In this document: in pieces, positions 4,723 to 64,000 of the stretch
How the letters are laid out: each line of letters starts with the position of its first letter
How positions within the stretch are numbered: the first letter of the stretch is position 1
Origin: Spartobacteria bacterium
GTDB lineage: Bacteria; Verrucomicrobiota; Verrucomicrobiia; Chthoniobacterales; UBA10450
Length of the DNA: 64,000 nucleotides
Assembly: GCA_003134785.1 (NCBI GenBank)
Contig: PLCN01000003.1
Coordinates: 248,001 to 312,000, forward strand
Direction: 5' to 3'
The notes under the pieces: generated by a model
What the model was told of the DNA's origin: nothing
The model's input: only the letters and a program-made list of their open reading frames with translations
Database searches by the model: none
Program-made: the position numbers and the translations under genes

Positions 4723-5388
4723 GTGAAATCCGACCTATTCGACGCAGCTTTACTCAAGACGCAAAAGACCTGGAAGACCTACGTCACCGCCATTTGCAGT
4801 CTTAACATTGGATTTCTAATTGACTGGCTCGGCAAATTTTCCTTCTTCAAAGGAGAGGCTGAAATAAGTGTGGCCGGGTTCAAGGTAGTTCGTGAGGCTC
4901 TTTCTTTGACCTACGGGCTTCTGTTCGCCGTTTTTATTGCCACGGCGCTTTGCGAGTCACGTTTGCTCAAGGCGTTGAGTGAGACCGCAACCCGCCGTCC
5001 CGAGTCCACCGAGCTGGAATTTTGGTATCTTTCTCCCTTTAGCCGCTCAAGGTGGCGCCGGTTCCTCTGGGCCGGCTTTTTCGTGGATGGTTATGTCTTG
5101 TTAGTAGTCTTTAGCGTTATCCATATTACCAAGTGGATTCCACCTAAAACAATGGAGACGCCATTGTATGTCGGTATTGGATGGTTCGATGCATTCATTT
5201 TCTTCGGTTGCGCCTTATTTGTATGGCCAATCTACCAAAATCTTCGGTCGGTCCGACATAGGATAGAATTGATGGATCCTAGGCTCAACTTTGTAGTGCA
5301 ACATTTGCTAGGTCTGAAGGAAGCATTGATTGGGTGTTTTGTAGCCATGTCTTTTTCTTGGTCGGTTGTTGAGGTGTTCGGCGATTAA
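4723..5388 (+). CDS. membrane protein gene, 3' end replaced by IS30
   Basis: GTG at 4723. The protein has about four hydrophobic segments: near residues 20-35 (VTAICSLNIGFLIDWLG), 60-78 (LTYGLLFAVFIATALC), 115-135 (WAGFFVDGYVLLVVFSVI) and 150-170 (IGWFDAFIFFGCALFVW). The native sequence stops at MDP (about 5279). The remaining 36 codons, to the TAA at 5386-5388, are read from the inserted IS30. Removing the element and one copy of its GGATCC duplication would give MDPNNT and a TAG at 6381-6383, so only about three native residues were lost. Function unknown. Confidence 0.65.
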   Translation: MKSDLFDAALLKTQKTWKTYVTAICSLNIGFLIDWLGKFSFFKGEAEISVAGFKVVREALSLTYGLLFAVFIATALCESRLLKALSETATRRPESTELEFWYLSPFSRSRWRRFLWAGFFVDGYVLLVVFSVIHITKWIPPKTMETPLYVGIGWFDAFIFFGCALFVWPIYQNLRSVRHRIELMDPRLNFVVQHLLGLKEALIGCFVAMSFSWSVVEVFGD

Positions 5389-6364
5389 GTCGCACTCGCT
5401 TTGGGTAACTCGGGCCATGGTCGCTCCTTTGGGCAGATACTGCCGGATGAGTCCGTTGGTGTTCTCGTTGGTCCCGCGCTCCCAGCTGTGATGCGGGGTG
5501 GCGAAGTAGAACTTGACCGGACTGACTGCTTCCACTTGGCCATACCAGTGGAACTCTGTCCCGTTGTCGGCCGTAATGGTGCGCATCCGCCCCGGATGCC
5601 GCGCCAGCAGGCCCAGCAACGCGCGGTTGGTTTCGGCCGCGGTGCGCGCTGGAAGTTTCCCCAGCATGAGGTAGCCGCTCTTGCGCTCGACCAGGGTCAG
5701 CACGCAGTGGCTGCTCTCCCCCGGGCTCTCGCCCATCATCGTGTCGATCTCCCAGTGACCGATCTGACGTCGCCGCTCCACCCTGGCTGGCCGCTCCCCA
5801 ATCATTCTTTTTCCCGCCAGGCGCCCTCGGCTGTCGTAACAACCGTAGCGTTTCCGGCAGCTCTTGCGCGCACCGCGCAGATGTTCGTGCAGCGTGCCTC
5901 CACTTCTCAGATCTCGCCAGATGTGCCGGTAGATGGTCTCGTGGCTGATCGCCAGCTCTTGCTTCAAGCGCAAGTGCCCGGAGACTTGTTCGGGGCTCCA
6001 CTCTTCGCGCAACAACCCTTCCACTCGCTCCCATTGCCCGCGTCCAAATTGGCTGTTGCGCCGCGACCGATAACGCCGCGCGTGGGCCCGTTGGTGCGCG
6101 CGCCGCGCTCGATACCATCCGTCGTAAGGCGCCGCGTTGCGTTTCAGTTCCCGCGACACCGTGCTGCGATGCCGCCCAAGCTCTCGCGCGATCTCCGCCG
6201 GCTTGAGCCCCACCAGTCGCAACGCCGCCAGCACGCTCCGCTCTTCCCCATTGAGTTGCCGATACTTCATCCCCATCTTCCCGCCACTCTTCGGCCCCTT
6301 CCAAACTCTTCTTTTTCCTTTCCCTCCACACGTCCTCCGTGTTGCACTTAGTTTGTGAATTCGC
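5280..6364 (-). mobile_element. complete IS30-family insertion sequence
   Basis: A 1085-bp element. Imperfect ends meet as CTCAACTTTGTAGTGCAACA (5284-5303) and the reverse complement of TGTTGCACTTAGTTTGTGAA (6340-6359), identical over AGTGCAACA. GGATCC lies directly outside both ends (5274-5279 and 6365-6370), consistent with a target duplication, although six bases is longer than the two or three usual for IS30 and the site is palindromic. The left boundary at 5280 agrees with the point where a second partial copy begins (37275). It carries one transposase gene on the minus strand. Confidence 0.85.
5308..6276 (-). CDS. IS30-family transposase
   Basis: 322 residues from the ATG at 6276 (MGMKYRQLNGEERSVLAALR); another ATG lies two codons on, and upstream in-frame codons run into the element end. 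An N-terminal helix-turn-helix (LKPAEIARELGRHRSTVSRE) is followed by a second DNA-binding part (WSPEQVSGHLRLKQELAISH) and the DDE catalytic core: GHWEIDTMMGE, then TITADNGTEF, then SWERGTNENTNGLIRQYLPK with the Glu. The C-terminus NNRPRKRHGYKTPNQCF is typical of IS30. Length is normal and no frameshift is seen, so it is probably active. Confidence 0.95.
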   Translation of the reverse strand: MGMKYRQLNGEERSVLAALRLVGLKPAEIARELGRHRSTVSRELKRNAAPYDGWYRARRAHQRAHARRYRSRRNSQFGRGQWERVEGLLREEWSPEQVSGHLRLKQELAISHETIYRHIWRDLRSGGTLHEHLRGARKSCRKRYGCYDSRGRLAGKRMIGERPARVERRRQIGHWEIDTMMGESPGESSHCVLTLVERKSGYLMLGKLPARTAAETNRALLGLLARHPGRMRTITADNGTEFHWYGQVEAVSPVKFYFATPHHSWERGTNENTNGLIRQYLPKGATMARVTQSECDLIAEHLNNRPRKRHGYKTPNQCFLQT

Positions 6365-25135: not shown

Positions 25136-25140
25136 ATCTT

Positions 25141-25292
25141 GGGGAGCGCAGGCTGCCAGCCTGCACATCTCGGCAGCTTGCCGAGACGCTGATGGGCGAC
25201 TTGGGTGCTGAAAGGCATGCAACGTCCTTAAGTGTAGCCGGCAAGCTGCCGGCAAGCTGCCGGCTACTGCAGGCTGGCAGCCTGCGCTCCCC
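25141..25292. repeat. palindromic element, GGGGAGCGCAGGCTGCCAGC family
   Basis: 152 bases with long complementary ends: GGGGAGCGCAGGCTGCCAGC at the left and GCTGGCAGCCTGCGCTCCCC at the right. The centre holds paired CGGCAGCTTGCCG and GGCAAGCTGCCGGC blocks. Further copies are at 57511 and 62940. It lies between trpS and a convergent gene. Confidence 0.88.
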
Positions 25293-25357
25293 AGCAGAAA
25301 ATCGATGCTCTCATATGTGATTCGCGAGTTGTCTTCTGGGTGGCGCACGGCCCGAGG

Positions 25358-36749: not shown

Positions 36750-37277
36750 ATGACTATCCAGGACCTAGGAAGTATCGGCGAGCTCGTGGCGGCGATAGCT
36801 ACCGTTGCAACTCTTGTCTATCTTGCTATTCAAATTCGCTCAAACACGAGCGCGGTGCAATCTGCCGCTGCGCAATCAGTCCACGAGGCATTCACAACCT
36901 GGTATCGACTGGTCGCTGCGGATGTATCGCTGGCCCGGCTTGTCACCGAAGGGTTGCAAAGTTATTCTAGTTTGGCGGAGGGTGATAGGCCTCGCTTTGT
37001 GGCCACATGCATGGCGTTTTCATTTTGCGCTCAGGACGCCTTTCTGAAGTGGCGGCAAGGCTCGCTCTCCCCAGAGCTCTGGAGGGGTTGGGAACTTGTA
37101 TTTATGAATCTCGTGCACGCACCCGGTGGCAAGGAATTTTGGAATGAGCGGGGTTATCTTTTTGGAGACAGATTCCGAGAACACGTCGAGAACGACTTGA
37201 TGAAACGAAAGCCACACCCTCTCGCGAAACCACTGGGGGCCTTTCCTATCGGCCCGACTCCTCATCCGGACGCTTAG
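36750..37277 (+). CDS. membrane-anchored hypothetical protein, stop supplied by IS30 end
   Basis: 175 residues (MTIQDLGSIGELVAAIATVA). One N-terminal membrane helix (IGELVAAIATVATLVYLAIQI) with the pattern I-I-R-NT typical of a common small family of unknown function, then a helical soluble part (VHEAFTTWYRLVAADVSLAR, DAFLKWRQGSLSPELWRGW). The TAG stop uses the T of the IS30 fragment that begins at 37275, so the native end may have been lost, though the length is near normal. Confidence 0.65.
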   Translation: MTIQDLGSIGELVAAIATVATLVYLAIQIRSNTSAVQSAAAQSVHEAFTTWYRLVAADVSLARLVTEGLQSYSSLAEGDRPRFVATCMAFSFCAQDAFLKWRQGSLSPELWRGWELVFMNLVHAPGGKEFWNERGYLFGDRFREHVENDLMKRKPHPLAKPLGAFPIGPTPHPDA

Positions 37278-37501
37278 GCTCAACTTTGTAGTGCAACATT
37301 TGCTAGGTCTGAAGGAAGCATTGATTGGGTGTTTTGTAGCCATGTCTTTTTCTTGGTCGGTTGCTGAGGTGTTCGGCGATTAAGTCGCACTCGCTTTGGG
37401 TAACTCGGGCCATGGTCGCTCCTTTGGGCAGATACTGCCGGATGAGTCCGTTGGTGTTCTCGTTGGTCCCGCGCTCCCAGCTGTGATGCGGGGTGGCGAA
37501 G
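37275..37501 (-). mobile_element. 227-bp terminal fragment of the same IS30
   Basis: It matches 5280-5506 with a single visible difference (T in TTGGTCGGTTGTTGAGG becomes C), changing Asn to Ser in the transposase tail. After ...GGGGTGGCGAA the sequence is unrelated (GATCAGCCGGACGCGG). Only the left end and the last 65 codons of the transposase remain, fused to MLFDQVGYRVRLI of unknown origin. It is a recent partial deletion or recombination product. Confidence 0.9.
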
Positions 37502-57492: not shown

Positions 57493-57510
57493 GTGCCTCG
57501 GCTTTGCTTT

Positions 57511-57652
57511 GGGGAGCGCAGGCTGCCAGCCTGCCGTGGCCGGCAGCTTGCCGGCCACATTGGCGGCGCGTGTATTACTCTCCGACGCCGCGCGTCGCGC
57601 GAATCGTCTCGGCAAGCTGCCGAGACGTGCAGGCTGGCAGCCTGCGCTCCCC
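57511..57652. repeat. palindromic element, GGGGAGCGCAGGCTGCCAGC family
   Basis: 142 bases, from GGGGAGCGCAGGCTGCCAGC to GCTGGCAGCCTGCGCTCCCC, with inner GGCCGGCAGCTTGCCGGCC and CTCGGCAAGCTGCCGAG hairpins. It separates the alpha-2-macroglobulin and pbpC genes and could soften read-through between them. Confidence 0.88.
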
Positions 57653-57694
57653 AAGACGGCAACGTTAGCGCAAGATGAATCGAAAATTGATCAC

Positions 57695-61798: not shown

Positions 61799-61848
61799 CG
61801 GAGACTTTTCGTTGCAATTGGGGCGAGACGTAATACGCATTGCGCGTT

Positions 61849-62919
61849 GTGAAAACTTCAGAGGTGACGCGCGTGGCGATAATGGGAGCTTCCGGGTACA
61901 CGGGCGAGGAGCTGGTGCGCCTGATTTTGCGCCACCCGCGCGCGGAGCTTACCGCCGTCACCTCACGGCAATTGGCGGGAAAACCCCTCGGCGAAGTCTA
62001 TCCGCGGGTTGGTTATCATCCGAGGGCAAAAGCGTTGCGATTTACCGACGCATCGCCCGAGAAAATCGCCGAACAAGCCGCTGTGGTTTTTCTCGCGCTG
62101 CCGCATGGCGTGGCCATCGATTTTGCGGCGCCGCTGTTGAAAGCCGGAGCGCGAGTGATCGATCTGAGCGCGGATTTCCGGATCAAAAACGCCGCGACCT
62201 ATCAGGAGTTTTACGTGCATGAACATCGCGCGCCGGATCTGTTGCCAATCGCCGTTTATGGTCTGCCGGAAATTTATCGCGACAAGATCCGGGAGGCCCG
62301 GCTGGTGGCTTGTCCGGGTTGTTATCCGACCAGCATTTTGTTGCCGGTGATTCCGTTGCTGCGCGCAGGGCTGGTCGAACCCGGCAGCATCATTGCGAAT
62401 AGTCTGAGCGGCGTGAGTGGTGCGGGCCGGAAAGCCGAGATCGATTACTTGTTTGTGGAATGCAATGAGAGCGCGCGTCCATATGGATTGCCGAAGCATC
62501 GCCATCTCGCGGAGATCGAGCAGGAGTTATCCATCGCGGCCGGTGAACGCATTGCGATTCAATTCACGCCGCATCTGATCCCGGTGAATCGCGGGATTCT
62601 GACCACGATTTACTGTGCACCCACGCGTGACCTGAGGGGCGCTGAGAATTGCGCGGCGTTTGTGGATCGAATCAGTGCTGCGTTTCAATTGGCTTACACC
62701 GATGAACCATTCGTTCGCTTGCTAGATGACAAAACGCTGCCCGACACAAAGAATATCGTCGGCTCGAACTTCATCGAAATTGCGTGGCGTCTCGATCAGC
62801 GGACGGGCCGGCTCATCGTGATGAGCGCCGAGGACAACATCCTCAAGGGCGCGAGCGGCCAGGCGATTCAATGCTTCAATTTGATGTGCGGTTGCGAAGA
62901 GAGCACGGGGCTGATTTGA
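61849..62919 (+). CDS. argC: N-acetyl-gamma-glutamyl-phosphate reductase
   Basis: 356 residues from GTG 61849 (a TTG at 61840 is an alternative). The third step of arginine synthesis: NADPH reduction of N-acetylglutamyl phosphate to the semialdehyde. Rossmann motif VAIMGASGYTGEEL, VVFLALPHGVA, VIDLSADFRI, active-site Cys in RLVACPGCYPTSILL, SGVSGAGRKAEID, PYGLPKHRHLAEIEQEL and the C-terminal VVGSNFIEIAWRLD-type segment (NIVGSNFIEIAWRLDQ). Length is typical. The stop overlaps a TTG that may begin argJ (TTGA), so the two are likely coupled. Confidence 0.95.
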   Translation: MKTSEVTRVAIMGASGYTGEELVRLILRHPRAELTAVTSRQLAGKPLGEVYPRVGYHPRAKALRFTDASPEKIAEQAAVVFLALPHGVAIDFAAPLLKAGARVIDLSADFRIKNAATYQEFYVHEHRAPDLLPIAVYGLPEIYRDKIREARLVACPGCYPTSILLPVIPLLRAGLVEPGSIIANSLSGVSGAGRKAEIDYLFVECNESARPYGLPKHRHLAEIEQELSIAAGERIAIQFTPHLIPVNRGILTTIYCAPTRDLRGAENCAAFVDRISAAFQLAYTDEPFVRLLDDKTLPDTKNIVGSNFIEIAWRLDQRTGRLIVMSAEDNILKGASGQAIQCFNLMCGCEESTGLI

Positions 62920-64000
62920 AAGCGCAGCGACAGATTCCTGGGGAGCGCAGGCAGCTTGCCCGCGGTGTTCGGCAGCCTGCCGAACATGATTCTCGCCGGC
63001 AAGCTGCCGGCGAGTGCAGGCTGGCAGCCTGCGCTCCCCAGATTGCACACAACTTTACATGCATCGCGGGTTCCATCACCGCGCCAAAAGGCTTTAAGGC
63101 CGCGGCGGTTTTTTGCGACATCAAGCGGATCGGCACAGGCAAGGGCTCGGAAAAAGGGGCGAAACGCGATCTCGCTTTGATCGTTTCGGAAGTTCCCGCA
63201 GCCGTGGCCGGGATGTTCACGACCAATCAAGTTTGCGCCGCGCCGGTTAAGATCAGCGCGAAAAACGCGGCCCGAAAAAGCGCGCGGGCGATCGTGGTAA
63301 ATTCGGGAAACGCGAATGCCTGCACCGGAGCTCGCGGAATGGCGGACGCGAAATCGATGACCGAAATCACGGCGAAGAATCTCGGACTTTCCGCGCATGA
63401 GGTGCTGGTTTGTTCTACCGGCCGGATCGGCGTGCCGATGCCGATGGCAAACGTGAAGCGCGGAATCATGAGTGCGGCGCGTTTGCTCTCGGGAGCGCCA
63501 GCTCGCGCTCGAGAGGTCGCGGAAGCGATCATGACTTCTGATACGCGGCGAAAAGAAATCGCGGTGGAATTTGAACTCGGCGGAGCGCGTGTGCGGCTCG
63601 GAGGAATTTGCAAAGGCGCGGGGATGATTCAGCCGGGAATGAGCCGCGACGGAAAGCGGCCGTCCGCCGGATTACATGCCACCATGCTCGGTTTCATCAC
63701 GACCGATGCGGCGATCGAACCGGCGCTGTTAAAGGATGCGTTGGAAAGCGCGGTCGCTCAGAGTTTCAACCGCATCACGGTCGATGGAGATATGAGCACC
63801 AACGATACGGTGTTGATCCTTGCGAACGGTTTGGCAGGGAACTCAAAGATTGGTAGGGCGAGACTCCGTCGAGCCGAGGGCTCTGAAGGCCGCGGATCAC
63901 AAAAGGCCGACGCGCGGCTCGACGGATTCTCGCCCTACCGGGATTTCCAGATTTTTCAGGGTGCGCTCAATTTCGTCACGCTCGAGCTGGCGAAGATGAT
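62916..64000 (+). CDS. argJ: ornithine acetyltransferase/glutamate N-acetyltransferase, with two in-frame repeat insertions (partial)
   Basis: Runs off the window end (361 codons shown). TTG 62916 overlaps the argC stop; no ATG, GTG or TTG is in frame between the repeat at 62940-63040 and the conserved start FTCIAGSITAPKGFKAAAVF. ArgJ motifs follow: VFCDIKRIGTGKGSEKGAKR, AGMFTTNQVCAAPVKIS, VVNSGNANACTG, CSTGRIGVPMPM, CKGAGMIQPGM, then LHATMLGFITTDA, where the Thr is the autocleavage nucleophile, and TVDGDMSTNDTVLILANG. The palindrome at 63852-63939 adds about 29 residues before FQGALNFVTLELAKM. The enzyme recycles acetyl groups in arginine synthesis. Whether it works with both insertions is unknown. 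Confidence 0.85.
   Translation, partial: MKAQRQIPGERRQLARGVRQPAEHDSRRQAAGECRLAACAPQIAHNFTCIAGSITAPKGFKAAAVFCDIKRIGTGKGSEKGAKRDLALIVSEVPAAVAGMFTTNQVCAAPVKISAKNAARKSARAIVVNSGNANACTGARGMADAKSMTEITAKNLGLSAHEVLVCSTGRIGVPMPMANVKRGIMSAARLLSGAPARAREVAEAIMTSDTRRKEIAVEFELGGARVRLGGICKGAGMIQPGMSRDGKRPSAGLHATMLGFITTDAAIEPALLKDALESAVAQSFNRITVDGDMSTNDTVLILANGLAGNSKIGRARLRRAEGSEGRGSQKADARLDGFSPYRDFQIFQGALNFVTLELAKM
62940..63040. repeat. palindromic element, GGGGAGCGCAGG family, inside argJ 5' end
   Basis: 101 bases from GGGGAGCGCAGGCAGCTTGC to GCTGGCAGCCTGCGCTCCCC, shorter than its relatives at 25141 and 57511. It is open in the argJ frame and would be translated if argJ starts at 62916. Confidence 0.85.
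63852..63939. repeat. palindromic element, GGTAGGGCGAGACTCC family, inside argJ
   Basis: 88 bases. The left arm starts GGTAGGGCGAGACTCCGTCG and the right arm ends CGACGGATTCTCGCCCTACC, with one mismatch. The same family is found at 24027. It is open in the argJ frame. Confidence 0.88.

Follow-up and report, generated by a model that had tools for sequence, protein, structure and literature searches.

Palindromes read in frame within coding sequences are already known, as the GTAG REPs of Opitutus terrae and others and as the palindromic elements (RPEs) of Rickettsia (PMC3733652; PMC10969869). GTAG REPs occur within ORFs singly or as inverted pairs, in uvrA and in genes for a ligase, helicases and tRNA synthetases, and are linked to RAYTs (PMC3733652). 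The two elements in argJ described here resemble those reported by Di Nocera et al. (2013, PMC3733652), which include the ones of the verrucomicrobium O. terrae, in being palindromic and in frame in housekeeping genes. Element 1, on the other hand, lacks the GTAG tag and carries GGGGAGC, and for this reason it was not classed as a GTAG REP. That study (PMC3733652) also does not describe in-frame copies with a complete transposase gene, or the same loops re-occupied by different elements across genera.

The Rickettsia elements are likewise palindromes of ~100-150 bp that lie in frame in many unrelated proteins, their own reading frames being compatible with those of the hosts. They are CGTC-tagged, are found only in Rickettsia and have no associated transposase known, whereas here RAYTs occur and the tags read GTAG and GGGGAGC. 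The argJ elements thus failed the criteria for Rickettsia RPEs, both by their tags and by their host (Chthoniobacterales/Spartobacteria).

RAYTs (TnpA-REP) and REPtrons (PMC2817692; PMC6006769) share with the transposases found here the HUH motif, the Tyr motif (YI..NP) and flanking inverted REPs. In RAYT subclass 2.4, REPs lie in frame inside tnpA itself (HuH survey 2018, PMC6006769). The same survey excluded members of excessive length, which it regarded as fusions or annotation errors (PMC6006769). The RAYTs known so far are genes that stand on their own, whereas those described below are internal to RecG, MetH, CarB, LeuS, ValS and others.

Two palindromes in the argJ reading frame

The analysed genome, designated G000, comprised 4.39 Mb in 25 contigs. 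The window, i.e. the whole stretch of 64,000 nt that was studied, corresponded to C10:248001-312000. The features at the argJ locus were as follows.

61840..62919, + strand: argC (from the ORF list); its stop codon, TGA, shares bases with the argJ start (TTGA)
62916..64000 in the window, on to 64439 (C10:312439), + strand: argJ, single copy
62938..63041, + strand: element 1, a GGGGAGC-ended composite palindrome, in the argJ frame an N-terminal extension, PGERRQLARGVRQPAEHDSRRQAAGECRLAACAPQ
62967..62985, + strand: inner hairpin of element 1, GTTCGGCAGCCTGCCGAAC (from the RNA fold)
62992..63014, + strand: inner hairpin of element 1, CTCGCCGGCAAGCTGCCGGCGAG (from the RNA fold)
63016..63032, + strand: REP-like hairpin GCAGGCTGGCAGCCTGC, adjoining the right GCTCCCC end of element 1 (from the sequence)
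63852..63939, + strand: element 2, a GTAG...CTAC palindrome in the site B loop, in frame as GRARLRRAEGSEGRGSQKADARLDGFSPY

The first-pass annotation had noted that argJ appears to be read through two different, unrelated palindromes without loss of frame. In the sequence, this was confirmed. The gene was open from TTG 62916 to a stop at 64439, which is 439 nt past the window end, giving 507 codons with no internal stop and no frameshift at either element. The coordinates given earlier for the elements proved correct to within a few bases (62938-63041; 63852-63939). The product scored 427 bits against the ArgJ family PF01960 and exceeded the NCBIfam equivalog cut-off. A second intact argJ, which would have refuted the claim, was absent; the gene is unique in the genome. 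A frameshifted gene or pseudogene was ruled out by the single copy, the open frame and the family match. The named relatives of this ArgJ belonged to Spartobacteria/Chthoniobacterales assembled from soil and permafrost.

Many genomes of the same family had no argJ (e.g. G009-G013, G021, G022, G025, G027 and G028). This suggests that these members use another acetyl-ornithine route or have lost the gene.

We interpreted the argJ palindromes as REP-type mobile elements, moved by RAYTs and retained because they are in frame at permissive sites of a needed enzyme, element 1 being a RAYT-less member of its family and element 2 a GTAG inverted pair. Our confidence in this reading, which was drawn from sequence, is high; translation and transposase activity are inferred. 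RAYT (HUH/Y1 tyrosine) transposases would move both palindromes, and selection on the host gene would remove out-of-frame insertions. The inserted residues would be translated and remain in ArgJ as disordered loops or tails without stopping its function, an inference made without expression or protein data.

Element 1 is 104 nt long, with 45-nt arms that are 78% complementary, and separates the TTG start from the conserved ArgJ N-terminus. Its RNA fold was predicted at -81.1 kcal/mol (z -8.1 vs shuffled sequence), and its REP-like hairpin unit, GCAGGCTGGCAGCCTGC, was high-copy in 1.49 Mb of G000. TTG 62916 had been proposed as the only usable start, and the proposal held for the standard start codons. 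No ATG, GTG or TTG was present between element 1 and the GSITAP motif in G000 or in G007, its sister species, and the nearest standard start was 51 codons upstream. In about 20 relatives a start lay 5-16 codons upstream of the motif.

Alternatively, ArgJ may begin beyond element 1 at a rare codon, and the palindrome between argC and argJ may serve as a 5' leader or control element at the RNA level; a non-canonical start (ATT, CTG or ATC) would make such skipping possible. In G004, G006 and G001, other GGGGAGC-ended palindromes were found at the argC-argJ junction and were followed by ATG, so that the palindrome there can be untranslated. N-terminal REPs are often extragenic, as Di Nocera et al. 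(2013, PMC3733652) warned. Element 1 was also strongly conserved. It differed between G000 and G007 at 3 of 105 positions (97% identity), when the argJ core was ~80% identical and 43% of its third codon positions differed. This was more than expected for a merely tolerated insertion, and suggests a structural rather than a coding constraint. On the other hand, the TTGA/GTGA overlap was the only start before GSxxAP, 5-9 codons away, in five family members free of the element (G005, G017, G019, G020 and G026), and the net insertion at element 1, 42 codons, kept the frame with that overlap start. With no standard start before the conserved N-terminus in G000 and G007, an untranslated element 1 appeared possible but doubtful. 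Judged from the sequence, read-through, particular to G000 and G007 within the genus, is the best reading but not a certain one.

Separate recent insertions of element 1 in G000 and G007 were ruled out, because the two copies share one diverged left arm, unlike the other copies in G000.

Element 2 is 88 nt long and takes the place of a short loop. Its arms (25 nt, 96% complementary) are inverted around a spacer, and its ends, GTAGGGCGAGAC... and ...CTCGCCCTAC, carry the GTAG tag. The predicted fold was -60 kcal/mol (z -7.5 vs shuffled sequence). In the alignment with the solved ArgJ structure 1vz6, the query positions 313 and 346 fell on chain residues 238 and 239, leaving a clean insertion of 32 extra residues with no frame change.

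Element 2 copies were 86 nt in G000, 74 nt in G007 (12 nt shorter) and 137 nt in G004, where a second GTAG element was nested in the first with the frame kept. The indels were multiples of three. The arms were conserved among the three genomes, and the spacer was replaced. Site B of G017, which belongs to another genus, held an unrelated GTAG element, and in-frame GTAG elements were present at site A (before VLVCSTGRIG) in G005, G017 and G019. G007 had both argJ elements, and other relatives lacked one or both or had different in-frame elements at the same loops. With the ArgJ tree, this pattern of sites requires several independent insertions.

In the AlphaFold model of G007 ArgJ, for which the best structural match was 1vz6 (TM 0.87 by target length), the core blocks mostly had a pLDDT of 80-96, and the values were 52-74 near site B and ~30 for residues 1-43.

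The conservation of element 1 (3/105 against a gene core about 80% identical) and the kept arms of element 2 with their turned-over spacer could also mean that the elements are functional additions under selection, such as regulatory loops or RNA structures, and not tolerated insertions. This was considered unlikely in view of their patchy presence, the different elements at the same loops and the low predicted order. Moreover, arms were kept and spacers turned over in other shared elements as well, one of them intergenic, which points to homogenisation or constraint at the level of the repeat. Repeat homogenisation or structural constraint could likewise explain the conservation of element 1.

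Tagged palindromes and transposases elsewhere in the genome

A search of 1.49 Mb of G000 gave 120 tagged palindromes, 78 with GTAG, 25 with GGGGAGC and 17 with AAGGAG. Two GGGGAGC-family palindromes were in the window outside argJ.

25139..25304, no strand assigned: GGGGAGC-family palindrome, repeat families D2/D5
57509..57654, no strand assigned: GGGGAGC-family palindrome, with an orthologous copy in G007

About 110 of the 120 were not intragenic. At least eight were flanked on either side by coding sequence whose frame they kept (argJ, nuoE-nuoF, an amylase-like gene, obgE, kdsB, uvrB, pheT and dnaE). No clear intragenic out-of-frame element was found among the 120 (1.49 Mb), and two same-strand cases in a different frame resembled gene boundaries. 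The chance of eight out of eight being in frame, if the frame were random, is near (1/3)^8.

GTAG elements were open in 2.2 of six frames on average, compared with 3.3 for random segments, and element lengths showed no excess of multiples of three. Palindromes designed to be open in many frames were thus ruled out for the GTAG elements. This suggested that in-frame placement would reflect survival through host-gene selection, and not design.

In the case of nuoE and nuoF, the two formed one open frame of 680 codons (C10:41737-43777, L042) with an AAGGAG palindrome at the junction, and the genes appear to have fused at this repeat. Elsewhere in the window, two 227-nt copies (5280-5506 and 37275-37501) were identical; their reverse strand presumably resembles the C-terminus of an IS30-type transposase (by eye only). 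A plasmid source was rejected, as no match was found.

G000 contained eight Y1_Tnp (RAYT) genes. Two were flanked by inverted GGGGAGC ends and lay in frame in recG and metH, and a third in-frame RAYT, with other ends, was in sua5.

C9:144663-147392: recG with RAYT, 910 codons, ends shared with element 1
C15:5346-9884 (L114): metH with RAYT, 1513 codons, ends related to those of element 1
C23:47550-49298: sua5 with RAYT, other ends

Both recG (combined score 675 bits) and metH (1604 bits) were single copy and over the cut-off. Pfam placed Y1_Tnp between host domains, in recG within the DEAD domain. Genes with such inserts, argJ, recG and metH among them, retained an open frame, a single copy and scores beyond the equivalog cut-offs.

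Element 1 and the recG RAYT insert had the same 26-nt right end, and in both the tag, the REP hairpin and the inner hairpin followed in the same order. On this sequence evidence, the best reading of element 1 is a member of the in-frame RAYT class without its transposase. A second metH site held a RAYT-less GGGGAGC palindrome in G000 and a full RAYT, at the same place, in G011 and G018. With a CACGGGCTTCCAGCCCGTG element besides the full RAYT and the RAYT-less GGGGAGC palindrome, the metH of G000 contained three in-frame insertions in all.

For element 2, pairs of its type beginning GTAGGGCGA numbered only five in 1.49 Mb, against 26 of GTAGCGGCG. The GTAGCGGCG family had an adjoining RAYT at C3:211537. 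None adjoined the family of element 2 itself at the loci checked, those of the eight Y1_Tnp genes of G000.

In-frame RAYTs in relatives and across the phylum

Of 58 genomes, 12 had a RAYT insert of roughly 270 codons at one site in carB, and these extended to another family of the order. Other forms of the site, all in frame, were an internally deleted insert (G023), short scars of a few residues (G004, G007 and G020) and, elsewhere, an empty 36-residue spacing. Between G005 and G006, the carB cores were 93% identical and the RAYTs only 51%, and the trees of host and insert disagreed. This suggested that the site has probably been re-invaded.

In two further genomes carB was split at the RAYT site, between two contigs in G025 (L279, L280) and between two reading frames in G030 (L282). 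An assembly break or a real disruption is possible.

The HUH motif (MPNHVHV/MPDHxHL) and the Tyr motif (YI..NP; YISQNA in the alaS of G015) were kept in all 24 inserts examined. No start of their own (ATG, GTG or TTG) was found up to the LPH motif in the carB inserts of G005, G016, G027, G028, G029 and G045, nor in the alaS RAYT of G015 from 60 codons upstream to that motif.

Across 289 Verrucomicrobiota, roughly 30% of the matches listed lay in frames of at least 540 aa. The hosts confirmed in other Verrucomicrobiota and relatives included carB, leuS, priA, dinG, hypF, valS and alaS, and the RAYT-bearing valS and leuS were single copy in their genomes. In these groups sua5 was also among the genes with an intact in-frame RAYT.

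We consider it likely that Verrucomicrobiota host translationally transparent transposons, in which one open frame runs through the REP ends and the transposase, so that single-copy essential enzymes (CarB, LeuS, ValS, AlaS, MetH, RecG and PriA) contain the complete transposase as an internal domain, often without a start of its own. Such elements would invade the same sites again in different genera, and would lose the transposase without losing the frame, leaving palindromes like those in argJ and then scars. With an essential frame occupied, the transposase would be protected from frameshift and stop mutations, and this residence may shelter it from decay. The activity of the in-frame transposases is inferred from their motifs only.

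Inteins are likewise in frame and patchy, lie at the same site in conserved enzymes and show signs of re-invasion. The RAYT segments could on these grounds be inteins or spliced domains, as the recurrence of one site in many species and the discordant trees of host and insert would allow. However, no splicing (Hint) domain was found by Pfam in the RAYT-bearing hosts, only Y1_Tnp between host domains, and the insert seems to be retained in the product. An intein reading was made very improbable also by the REP hairpins at the insert ends and by the reduction of inserts to scars only a few residues long.

Mis-assembly of metagenomes or chance long frames in GC-rich DNA (most genomes are metagenome assemblies; GC 58%) can hardly be credited, given that the same sites recur in independent assemblies, that the sequence on either side of the insert exceeds the equivalog cut-offs of the host models, and that RAYTs within frames longer than 540 aa were also present in the one-contig genomes G408, G409 and G421 (hosts not identified).

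Meaning of the in-frame insertions

The first-pass annotation had further proposed that such repeats can act as protein-coding insertions. The single-copy argJ, the indels in multiples of three among element 2 copies, the empty sites and the similar cases in other essential genes support this at the level of sequence, and protein-level proof is lacking. The argJ palindromes are less new than had been implied, given the Opitutus and Rickettsia precedents. For in-frame RAYTs, no published account was found in the open-access literature (subscription papers were outside the scope).

Transposons are usually taken to break the genes they enter. Here, entry was in frame into single-copy needed genes (carB, those of three tRNA synthetases, metH and recG), in some cases with a whole transposase as an internal domain. 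This amounts to an intein-like lifestyle without splicing. This class may have been missed by annotation pipelines, and by surveys in which transposases of excessive length are treated as errors.

The in-frame inserts show where well-studied enzymes naturally tolerate additions, and they make it possible to test directly how extra protein loops arise. The presence of in-frame repeats and RAYTs in single-copy essential genes across the phylum suggests that a transposable element can persist as part of an essential protein.
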